Origin: a bacterium
Lineage (GTDB): Bacteria; Patescibacteria; Gracilibacteria; 1-14-2-50-48-13
Direction: 5' to 3'
DNA length: 8,188 nt
NCBI GenBank assembly: GCA_030430105.1
Contig: JAUIFW010000048.1
Coordinates: 1 to 8,188, forward strand
Each line of letters begins with the position of its first letter. The first letter of the stretch is position 1. Positions 1 to 8,187 of this stretch are shown piece by piece. The notes beneath the pieces were generated by a model, which worked only from the letters and a program-made list of their open reading frames with translations, ran no database searches and had not been told where the DNA came from. The position numbers and the translations under genes were made by a program.

Positions 1-3000
1 CACCTGAGCATTGCCAGCAAAGGTAAGGTTTCGTGGATTTTCTATCTGAGCATCAAGTGTTCCCGCTTGTACGTATGTTCGCACCGCATGCAACTCTCTG
101 AGCTCCTCTTCTGAGAGTGATTCAGTTTCGGCCTTTGCAAGTAACGCCATCATTTGATCATCCAAAGCTAGATCCACATCAGGACCTGCATTCTGAGCAT
201 AGGTTTCTGCAAGGGAGCTTATGTCAGCCAATACAGCGGCCTGTCTATCTCGCAAATATTTTTCAGTAGCAGCCGTTTTTTCTTCCTCTGAGACTGCAGA
301 ATTTCGAATTTCAGCAAGAGTATTTGTATCCCGTTCCAATGCCTCTTTCTCCGCACGCTCAGCAATTTGGGATGTAGCAACCCCATCTTGAAGTATCTGA
401 TCACATACCGTATCATCCTCAGAAAGCTGTTTACATTGCGTCAACTTCTTCACCTTTTCAATTTCAATTTGCTTCTCTGCACGTGCATAACTCTGCGTTC
501 CTGCAAGTGTCCCATTTTCTATAGACGACACAAAGTCAAAGATACCCTCACCCGCCTGTTCTAGTAACGTTACATCTCCAAGCTTTCTACGTTCTTCAAT
601 ATCCTTTGTCGGATACTGAGGCAAGAACACTCCCGTCAGTGGGTCTGGCAGCCTGAGCGTAATTGTTGGAAGCTTGAGCTTCACCTTGAATTCCTCAAGT
701 TGACGCTCTACCCACTCCATAAAGAACGCTGGAGCGGAAACCTCCGGAGCTCCAGAAAGCATCTGAGTCGGAGATTCTCCAGTCATTTTGAACCCAGCAA
801 AGAACTCCTCCGCTGCCTGCTGCACCGCTCCTGCCGTGAGTGGATTGTTGATCTCGCCAGTCTTGGAAGATATCGCATACGGCGTAGAAACAAACGGCAC
901 ATTTTCCTCTCGTAAATCCAACGCTTCTGTACCCACACTCTGCGCCCTTGCAACCGCGTATCCCGCATTCCCTATCGTTCTACCAACTCCAGAAAGCATT
1001 CCTGACATACCGTCCACAAGCGATTGACAGGCTTCACGAACACCTAGTACATCTGGAAGTAGGTACACCAAACAGTTTCGATTTGGATCAAATGGAGGAG
1101 TACCTATCTTGGAGGTACCAGCCGCATATGGAGCCACACAGAACGCGATCGCAAAGCGACCTGACAAGGTAGGAGAAAGATAAAACCTGAAGTTAGTTGT
1201 TGCCTTCGAAGCATCATTCGTCAAGTACGTCGCATCCGGTGGCCATACTGGTACAGGAGATGGTGTGGGAGCAGCAAATGCTGGGATTTCATCAAATGGA
1301 ATCATGTCCAACAATCCATCCACGAGCTGCTTAATAGGACCAGCCTCCTGTTCACCGCCACCGAGCAACGAAGCCAAGTCGGCTTGTTCCTCAGGACTAA
1401 ATCCATCTAGGTTATCTAACAATGCATTGAAATCTAGATCTGAGAAGCCATCCAAAATAGATTTCCCGTCTGGTACAAAGAACGCCACATTGTCCTTTGG
1501 ACCAATAAGCCCACATCCTCCATACTGACAAGAACTATTGCGAAGCGAACGAGAGAATCGATCCATTTCTCTCTGCACACCTTGGTACACGCCCTCTCCG
1601 TACAGACGAAGGTCTTCAAGGGCAATACCAATCTCAGCAAGAATATCCTGCTGCTCCGCGGTAGGCATAAATCCAGGATCTCTGAGAGCGTCCGTATCTA
1701 TACCTAGAATTGTAAGAAGACGGTCATACTCCATATTGTCATCCCATAGATCAACAAGCCCATCCACGTCCTTGTCCTGAGCAAACAGTTGATTTTTGAG
1801 ATAGCTATTGAGCTTTGTTGCTAGCTCAAGTCCAATTGCCTCAGGTGAGGCATCATCCCCTGCACCCCATACAATCGCGCCATTTTCATCAAACTCAAAC
1901 CCTATAGCCTTGAGCACGAATCCAAATGGCAGGTCTTGGATACCCTGCACCCGTGGCTGCTTGCTAATATGGTTCACCATGAAGCCGTCACCCGCCTTTG
2001 CATACAGCATGTGGCCATCTGGAGACTGTGGAGAAGAAACACTAATCACTTCTTTAAGAGGATTGGAACCAAGTACCTCTGTCCAACCAGTAGCAATATC
2101 ATACAGAAGTGTCGGAAGAACAGGCTGCCCAACACTATTTTCCTCTACCTTCAGAAGTCGCTCTGAAAGAGTTGAAAGTCGAAGAGAAAGCGGAAGTCTC
2201 TTCACTTGTGTTCGATACGCAATATAGATGGTATCGCCATCTCGAAGCACCAAGTCTCTCAAGTACATCTGGAAATGCGATACCCCCATACCAGGCTCGT
2301 ACGAACAGACATTCTGGGTCTGAATCGTACCGTCTGTCTTTTCAAGCACACACACAGGTGTCTGCACAAGCTGCTGCCCATCCGTAAATCGATCACCCAG
2401 CTCCATCACAAGCACCTCTGGATAGGTCTGCGGATCTGGAAGACCTGCACGTACATACGAAAGACGAATCACATGCTCCACACGATCTCCTACAAGGAGT
2501 CGCTCGGAATCATCCATATCTCGCATATACTTCACCGCTTGTACTCCCTGTCCAGCTGCCTTGGCAACAACACCCTTTCGTAGTTCCTCGGAAATTTGTG
2601 CACTTCGCTGTGAAACCACATCCGTAAAGAGACCAACCAGCCCCTTCTGGTCAGATTCCACACCAGAGCCACCATTGATATCCATATACGTACGCAGGAA
2701 TCTAGTCGCCTGCCCAGCTAGCGTCACATATGGACTATTTGCCCTCACCAATCCCTTCATCGTCCCTCCATTGGCCTCTCCAAGGAAGCTTCGAAGGTAG
2801 TCCGCTCGATCAGCATTTTCAGGGGTAATATCCTGTCCTACTGCCTGCTTATTTGGATCATCATAACCTGCAGCATCTAGGGGACTCACAGAGTAGTTCG
2901 CCTTCTGGGCAAGCTCAGAAATAAGCGTGCTTGACAAATTGTCTGTAGTGTTCTCGACAAACACAATCTCAGGATTTCTAGGCTGCGTTCGAGGCACATT

Positions 3001-6000
3001 TTCAAAAGCCAAGACAGGTGTATGCCTCGTCCAATCTCCACGCACCGATGACTCATTACTATTGAAGCGTACATACACCTCATTCTCCATAGGTACGCCC
3101 TCCCAACTATCCACAAGTCCGATTGCCCTCGATGCAGCATCTGAGATAGGAAGGCTCTGTTCATCTCCATCTCCCTGAAGATTCACATCAAATCGATCAA
3201 TCTCATCCACGCTAAAGCGTCCTTCCTCAGAGGAAGTCGCAGAGGCAATAGAGAAACTTTGCTCCTCCACACAATCATTGGATTCATTCACCGTAATCAC
3301 CTTGAGCTCCTGATTCTGAGTTAAAAGAATGAGCTCATCATCTCCGTCCCCCTCCAAATCAGCCATCTCTACTTGCGCAATGCTTCCTAGGTCTGGAAGT
3401 ACCACACTACAACGAGCGAGTATAGTACTTGGATCCCGAGAAAGCTCGATCAGTGATCTATCTTCATGCTCAAGGTAAAAATTCGCTTCCTCCTGCTTGA
3501 GAGAGGCCTGCTTGGTATCCTTACGAGGAAGAATCACAATATTATCCCCACTATCCCGTCTCCTGAGCACCATATCCACCACACCCTCTGGCACATCAAA
3601 GATAGCTCCCACATAACGGAATCTCGCAGTAGGTTCTCCTCCTGTATTTCGAAGCGCATAGATCTGCTCTGATCCATCGGAGTACAGGATATCGTCACGC
3701 CCATCCCCATCATAGTCATAGGTGAGTATAGACGTAATTGGTGTCTCATGATGATGAAGGAAGGTTCCCACATCCTTCGTAAAGAATGCGTTTCCATCCT
3801 CCGTCTCTTCAATACCATTATGTATTCGAATGACAGGGTCCCCGAGATTTATCAAGGTATCCGAAGCATATGGAAGTGTACTCATTCCCACATTGTTTCC
3901 CCCTGAGAAAAGAAGCATATTCTTAAATTGTCCGACGTAACCAATCCCCTTACCCATTGGAAGCAGTGCATCCTCAACGCCTGGAGCAATACCTCCAAGC
4001 TGCTCTGCCGGAGAGTACTGCATAAATCGATCTCGAAGCACAAGCGCCGCAGAGTTATTTGAAGAAGAACCATATAAGCCATAATCAATACTATAGCGAT
4101 CCCTCTCCGGTGAATTCAGCTCCACAAAGATTCCATGCCCATTGTAAAGATTGAGGTATTTGGTCAAACTATCTCCTCGCCGAATAGGTGGAATACGGCC
4201 TGGAGACGGAAGGCTAGTACCAGGCTGCTGCGCACTATACACCGTTGGTAAGGACACATGCATACGCGCCAAGCTATCAAGTGTCACGCCAAGGTAGGTA
4301 TGAGAACCAGAAAGACTAGAAACCTCAGCTCCATCCGTAAGCAGTGGCCTAAAGTTTGGCGTCCACACAGCTTGTTCTTGATCAATGCTCCTCTCGGTCA
4401 ATGGCTCAAAGGTAGAACCGGCGAGGTTTGTGCGAAGATTTGATCCCTCTGGCAATTCAAGAAGGACCAATCCACTCGCCTCTGATCGGAATGGATCGGA
4501 GAAGAACTCAGCCAAGCGCAGCGACCCAAGCATGATTGATCGCACAATAGTAGACTGTGCAATCTGCCGCATGAGTGAGGCAGAAGTTTCAAATCCTTCC
4601 GTGAAGCTCGCTAGGTTCATCGAACTATCCAGTTGCCCAATATTGTCAAAGGCAAGATATATCGTATATCCAGAATCCGTCACCTCTGCCTGTAGAAGAG
4701 AATCTCCCTGTCTCCAAAGCACTCCATCACTCTGCAAATTCGCCTCTTCAAGCGTTGCGAGTGTATACATTGGTACAGCCTCAGGACGCGTAAGGCGCAT
4801 GCGAGCCACCTGAGTACCATCCACGAGGACACGATACTGAGACTCCTCTGGCGTCAGAGATTCCAGTGCCAAGCTAGCTCCTCCGAGAGACCATCGCGCT
4901 TCATCGTGATATACATCGACAAGGGAGGTCGCCACAGCATCGCTCTCTGCTGATGCTGAAGCACCTAGAACAAACTGCGTTGCTCCTTGAAGCACCAGCC
5001 GCAACGGCCCCTCTCGAAGCTGACTACCTGGCTCAGAAGTGAACTGAGACACCTCTTCTCGTGAGATGGTTGAACGATCAAGTTTCACAGAAGCGCTAAA
5101 GCGTGAAACTGTTGGAGTTGAAAGCTTAGCAAGTACATCCCCAGTGGACACCTCAACAAGAAGTTCACCCTCCTCCTGCGTGCTATCCAGCAACCTAGAC
5201 TCATATCGATCATCCAATATTACAAAGGAACGACCATCTTCACGCACCTGAGCAATACGATCTCCAGATCTACGAAGAAGATAACCTTCTACATCCTCAG
5301 CATCCACATCCCTTCGCACCTGTAGAAGTGTAGTATGTAGAGCCATAGCCTCTATAAAAGTCTCTTGCCCTTCTCGAAGAGTAAGCACTGGCTCGTTGCT
5401 AGGTCGCACATAGATGCCATCCGCAGCGAAGGTAGCAAGAACTCCTGATGTCTTCAAAGTGATTCCATCCTTCGCCTGAGCAATCTCTGTAATTGCGCCA
5501 GTGCGTACAATGCCATCTTCCAGAGCAAGAGAAGGAAGTTCTTCTCGCCGCTCACTAATGAGAATCTCCTTTTCAAATTCGTCTGCACTAAGTGATTCTG
5601 CGTAAAGTCGGACCACCGCCTCACCCAACTCCGGCACTGAGTACTCACTACTATCCAAGCCTACTGCTGGTTGAATACGGATTTCTGAAATACTACGCTC
5701 TCTCCTTTCCACCTCCTCTACCCTTGATCGAATCACTAGAAGCAATGTGCCGTCCTCACCATAAAGCTCACGCACCTCAATCACTCCAGCTAAAGAAGTC
5801 TGTAGAGAAGTATCTGGAGCAGTGGCTTCAAAAGCAAGATCCTCCTTGGAGAATACACCGAGAAGAGAATTACCAGCCCGCTCACTATCTCGCACCAAAA
5901 TCTGGTCCCCCACATCCTCAAGGACAACGCGTTCTACCTGCCTCGAGAAAAACACTTCACCAGGTTGCACAGAAAGAGAATCCGAAAGTGAAAAGTCCGT

Positions 6001-8187
6001 ATAGCTTCGATCAAGTGACACAGAGACCTCTGGCCAAAGGAGCACTTCCGCCAAAATATCAGCTGCGCCCTCCTTTCGGAGAAGTAAGCGAGAAATTTCA
6101 GTGCCAGGCTGTTCCTCCACCGTATACCCATCTGCAAGCTCACGCACGGAAGATGTAAGATCCGAATCCGTTTGCGCTCGCAATAAGGGAACATTTGTTT
6201 GCACAGCTGGCAGGCTCGTTGCCTTCCTATCGAAAACAAGCAAGTACCCATAGCGCTCAAGAACCACAATGTCCTCGCTTTGCATAGCTACCTGGAACTC
6301 GTTTCTCTCAGGAAGGAAGGTATTCAAATACTTATATTCACGCTGATACGCTCCCTGATATACCCCCGAAAGCACCTCCTCAGCATCAAGCGTAAGAGAA
6401 AGAGTCATGTACCCAAGTGTTTCCTGAAACTCCACACTACCCGATCCATAGACTGAAGACTCCAAAGTTTCGAGATGTACAAGCGCTCGCAGGCGAGCAT
6501 TCTCAAGATTTTCCTCTCGAGAAAGCGAAGTAACAGCACCATCCATTGTCAGCACATATCCATCTGCAAGATCCTCAAAGGCAACAGAAACGGAAGGTAC
6601 ATCCGTAAGCACAAGCTCCACAGATGCAATTTCTTCACCTCGGTATTGAAGCATTCCCTCAATACTACTTGATGCATTGTATGCTGCACCACTTACAACC
6701 AAAGCTACGTCTGGAGCAAAGACAAACGCTCCATCTCGTAGCCCAAAGAGCAGTGTATCCCCCTCATACAGACCACTTCGAACGCGAGACACACGATACG
6801 CAGAATTTTGAGGAGAAATACGTAGATGTGAAGTGCTAAGCAGGTCATCCGTCACCGTCAATCCTGCACCTGAACCTGCACCTGGTACAAACTGCACCCT
6901 TCCAACAAGCTCATTTCCCTTCAACAATTCAAGAGAAAGCACATTTCCAGCTTGCACGCGCCATGCAAATCCTTCCTCACAACTCGTCATTTTTCCCTCA
7001 GGCGAAAGCGTAGCCACCACATGCTGCGTAGCTCCTCTAGCAGCTGAAAGTGCACATACCGAGAGCACATCCTCTGACTGAGCACCAGAAGTGATAATAC
7101 GAAGATCACCATCTACCTCTACAGTAAACTGCCCTCCCGTATCCGGATCAATAAAACTAGATGTATCCACATAAAACCCCGCACCACTATCTGGAGATTC
7201 ATCTGGAAGCAATGTAATGATACGAGCTGGATGGGCAGCATACGAATCACGAAGTGTTCCAAGAAGCAATGAATCTCGACCACTTCGCTCTGATGCACCT
7301 AAGGTAGAAACAAGCTGACCACCTGCATTCACCGTAGATGTGAATGCAAGGGAAGTATCAGAGTCCGCATTCTCATTTTGTGACTCTATTGCATCTTGCA
7401 GAGATGCTCCTTCAAAGAGTTCTTGCGTAGCTCCTATGGTAAAGCGTCCTCCTTGCCCCATAAAGACCTTGGTCAATCGATCATGGTCCTGACCTCCGAC
7501 TAGAAGACGTGCAGATGGATGCCGCAGCTCCATATCACCAGCATCATTCATAGTAGCAACTGCTGTCGAAAGTACATCAAGCCGGAGCCTTGCAGAAGCT
7601 TCGTCAATAGAGAAGGAAGCAAGAGGTGTCTCCTGCGACCAACGTACGCTCATTCTTTCACTCGAATCCGAAAGGAATCGATCATCTATCAGTAGGGAAG
7701 CCGTAAGTCCCTGCTCTCCCCTTCGAAGTTCATACTGAACACTCTCTCCTAATGCATCCAATTGCAGCTCAGTTCCTTCCGTAGGAGCCACTACACCAGT
7801 AGCTCGATCCACTCGAGCAAAGAGCTCATCACCAACATACAAGAACAAGGTACGATCTGTTTCCTCAACTCTAGCTCCCTCCCCTGTAAGACGAAGAGTA
7901 TCCGCTCCAAAAGCCTCATCTGCCACATGAAGGTCAAGTGTAGCAATATGCAGCGCATTAAAGTACACACCAAGACGAAGTGTATTTCGCCCTTCAAGCG
8001 CAGGAAGAACTCTGTATGTAATAGCATCCTGTGCAGGCTCCAAGAAACGATCTCCAGAAAGCCACACCTGTGCCAAACAAAGAGGCGCAATACTTGTAAG
8101 TCCACTACAGAAGAGTAATTGTTCTTCAGAATCCGGATACCCTGGGACAAAAGCTCCAGCATAGTACCCCTGCACAGCGGAATCTCT
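1..8187 (-). CDS. Giant multidomain probable surface/secreted protein, internal fragment (open at both ends)
   Basis: One minus-strand frame is free of stops for 2,729 codons, from position 8187 to position 1. The frame at both edges agrees, so no net frameshift has occurred. No start, ribosome site or stop is present, and the complete protein is longer than 2,729 residues. The translation is coherent throughout: alternating beta-strand-like sequence over the first 1,180 residues or so, FG-GAP-like calcium loops near residues 1491-1678, a DUF11-like domain at 1899-1999, an EF-hand-like loop at 2138-2149, a Pro-rich hinge at 2302-2317 and a charged helical region at 2566-2709. I saw no catalytic motif and no convincing transmembrane helix. 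Only 15 cysteines occur, mostly as near neighbours, which fits disulfides in an oxidising compartment. Known families with such parts are extracellular and structural or adhesive; that role here is inference. The coding claim is very secure, the function is not. Confidence 0.95.
61..492 (-). other. Charged helical, possibly coiled-coil region (fragment residues 2566-2709)
   Basis: The segment is very rich in Glu, Lys, Arg, Ala and Leu and poor in Pro and Gly. Examples are YARAEKQIEIEKVKKL, QIAERAEKEALERDTNTL and TAATEKYLRDRQAAVLADI. Such sequence forms long helices and probably a coiled coil or helical bundle. Near its start, Cys2585 and Cys2595 bracket CKQLSEDDTVC, which could clamp a helical hairpin by a disulfide. 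The region then reads TESLSEEELRELHAVRTYV before the chain becomes less helical near the window edge. It contrasts strongly with the beta-rich first half of the protein. It may serve in assembly or attachment, but this is inference. Confidence 0.6.
493..999 (-). other. Unassigned segment before the charged helical region (fragment residues 2397-2565)
   Basis: It opens with a Gly/Ala/Ser-rich stretch (SGMLSGVGRTIGNAGYAVARA), possibly helical and small-residue packed. A helix (GAVQQAAEEFFAGFKM) follows, then a run that looks like an amphipathic helix followed by strands (EWVERQLEEFKVKLKLPTI). A sequence LPDPLTG occurs at positions 631-651, but it is not a sortase signal (see rejected items). 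No cysteine is present. No family recognised. Confidence 0.4.
1000..1200 (-). other. Small domain with three cysteines after the hinge (fragment residues 2330-2396)
   Basis: The domain starts with strands NFRFYLSP and GRFAIAFCVAP, followed by a turn-rich stretch (GTPPFDPNRNC), a hydrophobic strand CLVYLLPDVLG and a helix beginning VREACQSLVDG. The cysteines are at residues 2350, 2372 and 2387. This is the one place in the fragment where cysteines do not pair evenly. The odd one might bond with a residue outside the window or stay free. The hydrophobic strands are too short and broken to be membrane helices. No family recognised. Confidence 0.45.
1237..1284 (-). other. Proline-rich hinge (fragment residues 2302-2317)
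   Basis: Sixteen residues, PAFAAPTPSPVPVWPP, include seven prolines. Such stretches are extended, flexible or polyproline-II linkers between domains. This one separates the acidic helical segment from the cysteine-containing domain that follows, so it is a useful domain border. Confidence 0.7.
1285..1737 (-). other. Helical, acidic segment with a close cysteine pair (fragment residues 2151-2301)
   Basis: The segment is mostly helix-forming, e.g. AEQQDILAEIGIALEDL and VQREMDRFSRSLRN. It is followed by CQYGGC (Cys2220 and Cys2225, positions 1513-1530), a tight CxxxxC pair that may form a small disulfide loop. A lone CxxxxC is not a known metal site. After it come acidic Leu-rich helices (DLDFNALLDNLDGF, PEEQADLASLLGGG) and the start of the Pro-rich hinge. 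I do not recognise the fold. Confidence 0.45.
1738..1776 (-). other. EF-hand/dockerin-like calcium loop DKDVDGLVDLWDD
   Basis: Residues 2138-2150 read DKDVDGLVDLWDD. The spacing D-x-D-x-D-G-x-x-D-x-x-D is that of an EF-hand loop, with acidic ligands at loop positions 1, 3, 5, 9 and 12 and Gly at 6. The same pattern occurs in dockerin and thrombospondin type 3 repeats ('DxDxDGxxD'). A helix precedes it, and helical sequence (YDRLLTILGI) follows, as in an EF-hand. Only one clear copy is visible, whereas dockerins have two, so an isolated calcium-binding loop in a surface protein is the safer reading. Confidence 0.6.
1777..2190 (-). other. Unassigned segment with a propeller-like strand (fragment residues 2000-2137)
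   Basis: After the DUF11-like domain the chain reads as mixed strand and helix. One piece, SPQSPDGHMLYAKAGDG, resembles the 'SPDGxxLxY' strand of TolB/PD40 propeller repeats, but only one copy is seen, so it may be chance. The segment ends in a helix (LELATKLNSYLKNQLF) that leads directly into the EF-hand-like loop. No cysteine is present. I cannot name a family. Confidence 0.4.
2191..2493 (-). other. DUF11-like extracellular beta-sandwich domain (fragment residues 1899-1999)
   Basis: About 101 residues follow the order of a DUF11 or related conserved-repeat domain. A VGDRVEHVIRLSYVR entry strand is followed by an EVLVMELGDRFTDGQQL segment at the place of the usual 'VTDxLPxG' part. The exit pair is YLRDLVLRDGDTIYIAYRTQV, broken here as YLRDLVL and RDGDTIYIAYRTQV, which matches the family's 'L..G.s.tl.i...V' ending. 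Cys1946 and Cys1961 flank the central hairpin and are well placed for a disulfide. DUF11 domains are stalk modules of bacterial and archaeal surface proteins, often sharing an architecture with other adhesive or structural domains. The call rests on pattern and topology, not on a profile search. Another Ig-like family is possible. Confidence 0.5.
2494..3120 (-). other. Mixed, partly helical linker region (fragment residues 1690-1898)
   Basis: The first part has strands such as EVYVRFNSNE and EIVFVENTT. The second part looks helical, for example around STLISELAQKA, DYLRSFLGEA and VSQRSAQISEELRKG. It lacks cysteine and contains a small acidic Gly turn, DINGGSGVESD, that might bind a metal but is not a recognised motif. 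I cannot assign a family. It joins the FG-GAP-like block to the DUF11-like domain without any break in frame. Confidence 0.45.
3121..3960 (-). other. FG-GAP/VCBS-like repeat block with calcium-binding loops (fragment residues 1410-1689)
   Basis: The clearest loop is DYDGDGRDDI at residues 1491-1500 (positions 3688-3717), preceded by ILTY and followed by LYSDG. This is the classic FG-GAP/VCBS form, in which a DxDGDGxxD loop joins two strands of a propeller blade. A second copy, DLEGDGDDEL, lies at 1610-1619 (3331-3360). A third, weaker copy, NLQGDGDEQS, lies at 1669-1678 (3154-3183). Between the first two, LRRRDSGDNIV near 1541 sits at the right spacing but has lost most of the acidic ligands. 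The steps are about 50, 69 and 59 residues, close to the usual 60-residue blade. Upstream, GYVGQFKNMLLFSGGNN looks like another blade without the loop. Such repeats form beta-propellers in integrin alpha chains and many bacterial surface proteins, with calcium bound in the loops. One cysteine pair (1593/1639) falls inside. Confidence 0.8.
3961..4653 (-). other. Unrecognised segment between the beta-repeat part and the FG-GAP-like block
   Basis: Residues about 1179-1409 begin with a helical stretch (around ASLMRQIAQSTIVRSIMLGS), followed by mixed strands and a Pro/Gly-rich turn region (PGTSLPSPGRIPPIRRGDS, ending near residue 1340). After that comes YLNLYNGHGIFVELN, which looks like strand-turn-strand. 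It contains no cysteine. The final part could form the first blade of the FG-GAP-like block that follows, because Gly-aromatic patterns already appear there. I recognise no family. The coding frame is continuous with both neighbours. Confidence 0.5.
4654..8187 (-). other. Beta-rich N-terminal part with diverged repeated domains (fragment residues 1-1178)
   Basis: This section has short alternating hydrophobic/polar stretches separated by Gly, Asp, Asn and Ser turns, as expected for a chain of beta-sandwich domains. A recurring strand pattern, hydrophobic-Ala-x-[V/L/R]-x-[L/V], often follows a G-[D/N/E] turn. Examples are HIATLDL (Ala at residue 82), LFARVDR (124), EIASVELVL (521), ILAEVLL (713), RIAQVRE (979), VLAKLST (1020), QVARMRL (1128) and LLQAEVT (1167). 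ELVGRVQF at 429 has Gly in place of Ala. A second shared element follows some of these, e.g. VSVSLDRS (LDRS from 725) and SASVKLDRS (LDRS from 1036). The pentapeptide LADGY occurs at 540 and 684. Two cysteine pairs lie here, 27/37 and 378/403. The domains are too diverged for me to name a family or set borders. A stalk or fibre-like role is inference. Confidence 0.55.

Follow-up and report, generated by a model that had tools for sequence, protein, structure and literature searches.

What gene occupies a stretch of bacterial DNA from one edge to the other, and what does its product do? Gracilibacteria and their relatives are tiny bacteria thought to live either in attachment to other cells or as predators of them, and the molecules with which they attach are poorly known. 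The ten longest proteins of Vampirococcus lugosii, with 1,392–4,163 residues, are inferred to lie in the membrane, and the very large proteins of this organism are proposed to serve host recognition and attachment (PMC8080830). Homologues of some of these giant proteins are reported from several orders of Gracilibacteria (PMC9793634), and proteins above 5,000 residues are enriched in Peregrinibacteria (PMC11573180). Large exported proteins are described for Peribacter (PMC4736985), and type IV pili and a VCBS-repeat protein are expressed by Gracilibacteria (PMC11452946).

The DNA analysed here, 8,188 nucleotides in all, is referred to below as the window. Its source belongs to the class Gracilibacteria, in the Peregrinibacteria–Gracilibacteria–Absconditabacteria branch of Patescibacteria/CPR, and probably uses the standard genetic code. 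A preliminary description, made from the sequence, had claimed that a single frame is open across the whole window and encodes more than 2,729 residues of a giant, multidomain surface protein. By our analysis, the window represents the middle third of one gene, whose very large product is probably secreted.

A single open frame across the window

The minus-strand frame that begins at position 8187 has no stop in 2,729 codons and exits both edges of the window, as had been claimed; at the base composition of the window, the probability of such a frame by chance is about 10^−65. The remaining five frames contain 69 to 208 stops, and their longest open run is 188 codons. Common prokaryotic gene callers allow genes that run off both edges of a sequence. 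The GC content at the three codon positions of the open frame, 63/43/40%, is a coding pattern. Furthermore, its codon usage correlates with that of the homologous giant gene of genome G027 with r = 0.69, as against at most 0.23 for the other five frames, and it is the best frame by codon usage in all 26 sliding windows of 600 bases. Thus, codon usage favours the minus-strand frame of the preliminary description. Homology to the G027 protein extends over window residues 14–333 and 812–2703 without a frameshift. That the frame is open by chance, or is a dead gene, has in its favour only the absence of close relatives in direct searches with the window protein, and is already refuted by the chance probability, the homology along G027, and the codon usage.

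No tandem DNA repeats were found in the window, and no self-repeats were found in the window protein at E ≤ 1 or in a two-sequence profile search of its residues 1–1420, so the length does not come from simple repetition. The protein contains 8.2% Glu and 7.2% Asp, only 2.1% Lys, and 0.5% Cys.

The direct searches were these. With the window protein as the query, the protein database gave no relatives among proteins between 0.55 and 1.75 times as long (about 1,500–4,775 residues), a restriction that places longer relatives outside this search. No relatives of the window protein were found in phages or plasmids, none in viral contigs with either the protein or the motif pattern described below, and no match in PHROGs; the PDB, searched by sequence, gave only matches with E values of 0.6 and 0.8. 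Single-sequence patterns applied to genome contigs matched eight stretches, of which none was a relative.

The closest relative

The search of the class genomes with the window protein matched 178 of 353. By far the best match is G027:C6:107052-110579 (E = 1.6e-140, 34% identity, window residues 1339–2598). The giant gene of G027 (C6:102726-126308) is an open frame of 7,874 codons, giving 7,861 residues from the first start codon, and makes up nearly 2% of a 1.3-Mb genome. A global alignment places the entire window against G027 residues 3847–6563. The significant local matches cover window residues 14–333 (E = 2.5e-9) and 812–2703 (E = 1e-145). Residues 334–811 are joined to G027 by the global alignment only, with 21–28 identities per 100-residue block, and no local match in this part reaches significance, G027 included. 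Across the first 1,400 residues of the window, there are 21–30 identities per block, and the number is 55 in block 1401–1500, in the propeller, and 47 in block 2301–2400, in the motif. If the rest of the protein resembles that of G027, the full protein would, by analogy, have about 7,900 residues (3,846 + 2,729 + 1,298 = 7,873), and the full gene would be about 24 kb long.

The GroEL of G027 is closest to those of the Peregrinibacteria G025 and G002, with 70 and 69% identity (28 of 36 genomes had a match), and this likeness fits the standard-code part of the class. The giant protein of G027 ends where its relatives run on to SLH and TSP3 domains, and groES–groEL lie downstream of the gene. Pfam finds no SLH domain in the window, the C-terminal end of the protein being outside it, and none in the C-terminal piece of the G027 protein.

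Domain anatomy of the window

The features of the window are collected in Table 1. Judged from its sequence, the second half of the window holds a conserved core, made up of an FG-GAP β-propeller, a DUF11-like domain, and a Cys/Pro/aromatic motif.

Table 1. Features of the window; residues are those of the window protein and positions those of the forward strand.
Feature	Residues	Positions	Strand	Basis or remark
Interior part (2,729 residues) of a single giant protein-coding gene that continues beyond both edges of the window		1..8187	−	Open frame, G027 alignment, codon usage
Lineage-specific, non-repetitive expansion before the conserved core	1–1340	4168..8187	−	Of the proteins compared, G027 alone shares it
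Weak copy of a repeat of about 60 residues	972–1014	5146..5274	−	10.2 bits; best of 100 shuffles, 4.8
FG-GAP-type β-propeller region, best conserved part of the window	1361–1640	3268..4107	−	Pfam, homologues, invariant Asp positions, model
DUF11-like domain (by position)	1880–1995	2203..2550	−	Aligned with the weak DUF11 match of G027
Asp-rich segment DKDVDGLVDLWDDN	2138–2151	1735..1776	−	Sequence; place of the DxDGDG segments of relatives
Class-specific Cys/Pro/aromatic motif region, ending YxSPTLSxxxAIAFCxAPY	2216–2540	568..1542	−	Profile A1
Motif core used as DNA pattern		1126..1182	−	Exact match in the window
Charged, probably helical stretch toward the C-terminal part	2541–2729	1..567	−	G027 alignment to about residue 6563; helicity from sequence only

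The Pfam family FG-GAP_3 matches window residues 1491–1517 with 25.4 bits, just below the cut-off of 26.9, and there are four weaker matches. The propeller core also gives tblastn and blastp matches to relatives, with E values down to 1.6e-140. The structure model of the region has a pLDDT of 46 overall and of 70–78 at residues 1490–1539, the central blade. A Foldseek search with the model returned 21 matches at E ≤ 0.001, with TM about 0.25, all of which we take to be β-propeller proteins; given the overall pLDDT, we take only the description 'β-propeller' from the model. The propeller alignment leaves out a mis-registered row (L025) and lacks 10 of the 26 true loci described below, which had no propeller match at the threshold.

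The DUF11 match of G027 that defines the next domain scores 17.6 bits, below the cut-off of 24.6, and P0004, one of three relatives (P0002–P0004), has a match of 23.3 bits at a like place. The DxDGDG segments of P0002 (position 3327) and P0004 (position 2118) each lie about 100 residues before the Cys/Pro/aromatic motif. In this motif region, P, R, Y, P, T, C, C, and Q are invariant in 26 aligned rows, and the window keeps these columns; blastp pieces from window residue 2200 on are found in many of the 83 family proteins compared. The structure model of the region has a pLDDT of 51 and no usable fold. An NCBIfam acetyltransferase model matched the window protein with 12.7 of 350 bits, which we regard as chance.

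The first half of the window is different. Of the 129 matched pieces from 81 family proteins, 128 begin at or beyond window residue 1200 (blastp). The stretch before the propeller, measured by alignment ends, is 2,367–2,422 residues long in G027, versus 117, 152, and 87 residues in P0002, P0003, and P0004, respectively. The first 1,340 residues of the window lie in this expansion, which among the proteins compared is found only in G027, and they may lengthen the stalk in the lineage of the window. What is this stalk made of? A model of a divergent repeat of about 60 residues was built from relatives, ten of which have 2 to 6 copies each, before the propeller and before SLH. The single weak copy in the window suggests a β-rich stalk, but no copy above 0.8 bits is found in the expansion of G027, which counts against it.

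A giant protein family across the class

Window residues 2334–2353, approximately, resemble what we took to be a motif of the giant proteins of Peregrinibacteria. A degenerate DNA pattern of this motif, with one exact match in the window, was loosened slightly for the search of the genome contigs and gave 27 loci; at 26 of these, the pattern lies in a long homologous frame. The record titles of the 27 include Peregrinibacteria, Gracilibacteria, Absconditabacteria/SR1, Patescibacteria, and one spirochaete. The 26 match the window protein by tblastn (E < 1 with at least one of two genetic codes), the best with E values of 10^−13 to 10^−27 and the weakest being L003 (0.23, 0.34), L005 (0.004), and L021 (0.22 with code 11; 1e-5 with code 25). 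L012, from the spirochaete, has a closed frame of 344 residues and no tblastn match, and we reject it as a chance match of the pattern.

The frames that carry the motif at the 26 loci are 1,125 to 2,666 residues long, provided that 13 loci are read with code 25, and each is cut by the end of its locus on at least one side. These 13 loci (for example, L004, L010, and L017) have in-frame TGA and a long frame only under code 25. Of ten relatives that were extended, two run off the contig and seven have a closed frame, which encodes 4,002 to 5,845 residues when counted from its first start codon. At G008:C14 (L037), 201–17781, the giant gene is in two frames beside a run of unknown bases, possibly an assembly gap.

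Two profiles were used to follow the family. Profile A1 covers the motif region and was built from the window plus all true loci but L001 (25 of 26), which was excluded because it ends at the motif; the profile matches 226 of the 353 class genomes. Profile A2 covers an N-terminal domain, outside the window, from 14 relatives, and matches 241 of the 353, with a single match in all but seven of the 241. The completeness of the class genomes is not given, so these counts are probably lower bounds. In a phylum sample, whose share of genomes from outside the class is not given, A2 matches 20 of 379 genomes, all 20 of them already seen in the class search. Genomes G162–G235 gave no match to the family with A1, A2, or the window protein, and GroEL was present in all nine that were tested. 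This seems to be a part of the class without the giant protein, or with one that has diverged beyond recognition.

The N-terminal domain of P0002 found 82 database proteins, the query included, of 3,757–6,066 residues. The named ones among them are labelled 'S-layer homology domain-containing', 'FG-GAP-like repeat-containing', 'TIGR01451 family', or 'hypothetical' and are assigned to Peregrinibacteria, Gracilibacteria, or 'bacterium'; counted from the table of domains, SLH is present in 70 and FG-GAP_3 in 70. P0002–P0004 had been reached earlier through the motif of the window. When the 82 proteins and P0004 were compared with the window by blastp, 81 of 83 matched at E ≤ 1e-3, showing that both parts of the family, inside and outside the window, are in the same proteins. 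This result, with the unbroken 7,861-residue gene of G027, bears out the giant, multidomain protein of the preliminary description.

By homology, then, the family is real, class-wide, present in about one copy per genome, and already in the databases, and as far as the sequences tell it crosses a change of the genetic code. Its members are at least about 3,700 residues long, each in a single frame; the window contributes at least 2,729, and its collinear relative has 7,861. On the same comparison, the branch of the window is an unusually long version of a known giant family.

Architecture of the relatives

Because the gene ends outside the window, its secretion, anchoring, and neighbours are read from its relatives. 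Their N-terminal part has a signal-peptide-like start, recognised by eye, followed by the VAILV...WHGVI domain, Ig-like/invasin domains, and the 60-residue β-type repeats. The middle of the proteins and the part toward the end contain the FG-GAP propeller, a DUF11-like domain, the Cys/Pro/aromatic motif, helical and proline-rich stretches, a PKD-like region (our own assignment), and further repeats. SLH, TSP3, and a short end domain form the C-terminus, and not every member has each domain. In this order of domains, the window begins ahead of the propeller and reaches into the helical stretch that follows the motif. The start of its gene is outside the window, and the N-terminal domain, VAILV...LIGDVPLPVV...WHGVI, is present in G027. 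The signal-peptide-like start and the SLH, Ig-like/invasin, and FG-GAP domains of the relatives are consistent with the class of surface proteins in which the window had been placed.

Gene neighbourhood

The flanks of the giant gene were examined in 15 genomes, ten of them with readable sequence on the upstream side; G015, G022, G024, G239, and G301 offer hardly any there or none at all. Five of the ten have a pilin homologue one to three positions before the giant gene: G026 (loci L029/L030), G025 (L031/L032), G023 (L033/L034), G012 (L038), and G286 (L080). No upstream pilin homologue was found in the other five, G002, G005, G007, G009, and G027. In G026, genes for T2SSE, T2SSF, and a PilN-like protein (20.6 bits, versus a cut-off of 22.8) precede the pilin gene. 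Homologues of T2SSE and T2SSF are also found in three further genomes, and a pilin homologue in four further.

Downstream, as far as the stretches reach, as many as four genes encode partner proteins whose starts resemble signal peptides. For the first partner gene, blastp finds a counterpart in one or more of the other genomes in 13 cases out of 15, the exceptions being G002 and G027. The four partner proteins of G026 have no Pfam match. Profile A6, made for the second partner protein, matches 133 of the 353 class genomes; 26 of its best 32 matches are on the contig of the giant gene (by eye), eight of these 26 by construction. The A6 profile has no match in the G027 genome. In the third partner protein (L030:10061-11896 and seven counterparts, alignment A5), a C-x-x-C-H sequence is invariant in 8/8. 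Such a C-x-x-C-H motif also occurs in c-type cytochromes.

Proposed function

What is the function of the giant protein? Taken as a whole, we consider it likely that this is a giant exported protein of Gracilibacteria with a role in host attachment together with pili. Its most likely role would be that of a host-attachment scaffold or adhesin, as suggested by the domains, the neighbouring genes, and published views of the relatives. In the proposed mechanism, the protein would be exported through Sec and would form a long, β-rich surface fibre or scaffold, on which the FG-GAP propeller may be displayed as a ligand-binding module. It may act jointly with type IV pili, and its purpose would be to fix the cell to a host or to prey. 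The SLH, TSP3, Ig-like/invasin, FG-GAP, and DUF11-type domains of the relatives argue for this reading. Against it are the low confidence of both structure models, of the propeller and of the motif region, the five genomes among ten in which no pilin homologue was seen upstream, window residues 334–811 with their lack of a significant local match, and G027, with neither the SLH/TSP3 end nor partner genes, no A6 match, and no recognised upstream pilin. We found no adhesion experiments on members of the family in the literature searched.

A bolder version of the attachment role is that the pilus genes, the giant propeller protein, and the four partners, one with CxxCH, form an undescribed attachment machine found throughout the class, and that the lineage of the window has added about 2,300 residues ahead of the propeller and dropped the SLH anchor and the partners. 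A literature search, largely without subscription papers and preprints, turned up no account that links the giant gene with type IV pilus genes, and none of the partner genes. We regard this version as less likely than not.

Also less likely than not is the possibility that the giant protein is mainly a structural scaffold of the envelope, like an S-layer, in which the propeller and Ig-like domains merely build the layer. The SLH domains in 70 of the 82 database members, several of which have 'S-layer homology domain-containing protein' as their source name, speak for this explanation. On the other side, an appendage or adhesin accounts better for the pilus genes found beside the giant gene in five genomes, and no SLH end is present in G027, the closest relative.

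The pilus genes might instead mean that the protein resembles PilY1, a pilus-associated adhesin in which a large propeller-bearing protein is presented by type IV pili. The T2SSE, T2SSF, and pilin genes directly upstream in G026, along with the sub-threshold PilN, and the FG-GAP propeller agree with this, but Pfam assigns no PilY1 family to the window, to P0003 and P0004, or to two pieces of the G027 protein, and the five genomes without an upstream pilin homologue include G027. We think it rather unlikely.

Could the protein be secreted, processed into several pieces, and degradative or predatory? The N-terminal domain of the relatives, 'GVVLIGDVPLPVV...WHGVI', may recall the core of a peptidase C25-like protein. 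The peptidase reading was rejected, since none of 14 N-terminal domains matches a peptidase family in Pfam. No catalytic domain above the cut-off was found in the window, the two relatives P0003 and P0004, or the G027 pieces, with the sole possible exception of a C-terminal domain of P0003 and P0004 that is named after glycoside hydrolase family 2. Such a role has been suggested for giant, processed proteins of Omnitrophota (cited in PMC13104272), and the giant size and the predatory life of some relatives (Vampirococcus, PMC8080830) would suit it; on balance, we regard it as improbable.

Comparison with known giant proteins

For an attachment role in these bacteria, the giant family is an obvious candidate, with about one copy per genome in 241 of the 353 class genomes and with matches in the phylum sample to class members only. 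The N-terminal domain and the motif core are simple markers with which it can be recognised, and the window adds a branch with a protein of about 7,900 residues, if the G027 analogy holds.

How does the window compare with the giant proteins already on record? The G027 protein aligns along the whole window and shares the expansion before the propeller; however, it is from a different species, over the first 1,400 residues it shares only 21–30 identical residues per 100-residue block, and both of its ends are known, while those of the window protein are not. The 82 database proteins resemble the window in the propeller, the motif region, or both (81 of the 83 compared). By contrast, they have no match to its first half, and 70 of the 82 have SLH, which is absent from G027.

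The giants of V. lugosii are from the same class as the window, include proteins with integrin, fibronectin, PKD, and DUF11 domains, and are proposed to act in attachment; they differ in having at most 4,163 residues and in coming from an order with code 25 (PMC8080830, PMC9793634). Judged by their descriptions, they likely belong to the family of the window. Candidatus Peribacter also has large exported proteins, and two cysteine-rich ones are annotated as integrin alpha FG-GAP. It differs in that its seven very large variable proteins have 1,219–3,861 residues, and a 14-gene cluster of other proteins averages 7.2% cysteine, versus 0.5% in the window (PMC4736985).
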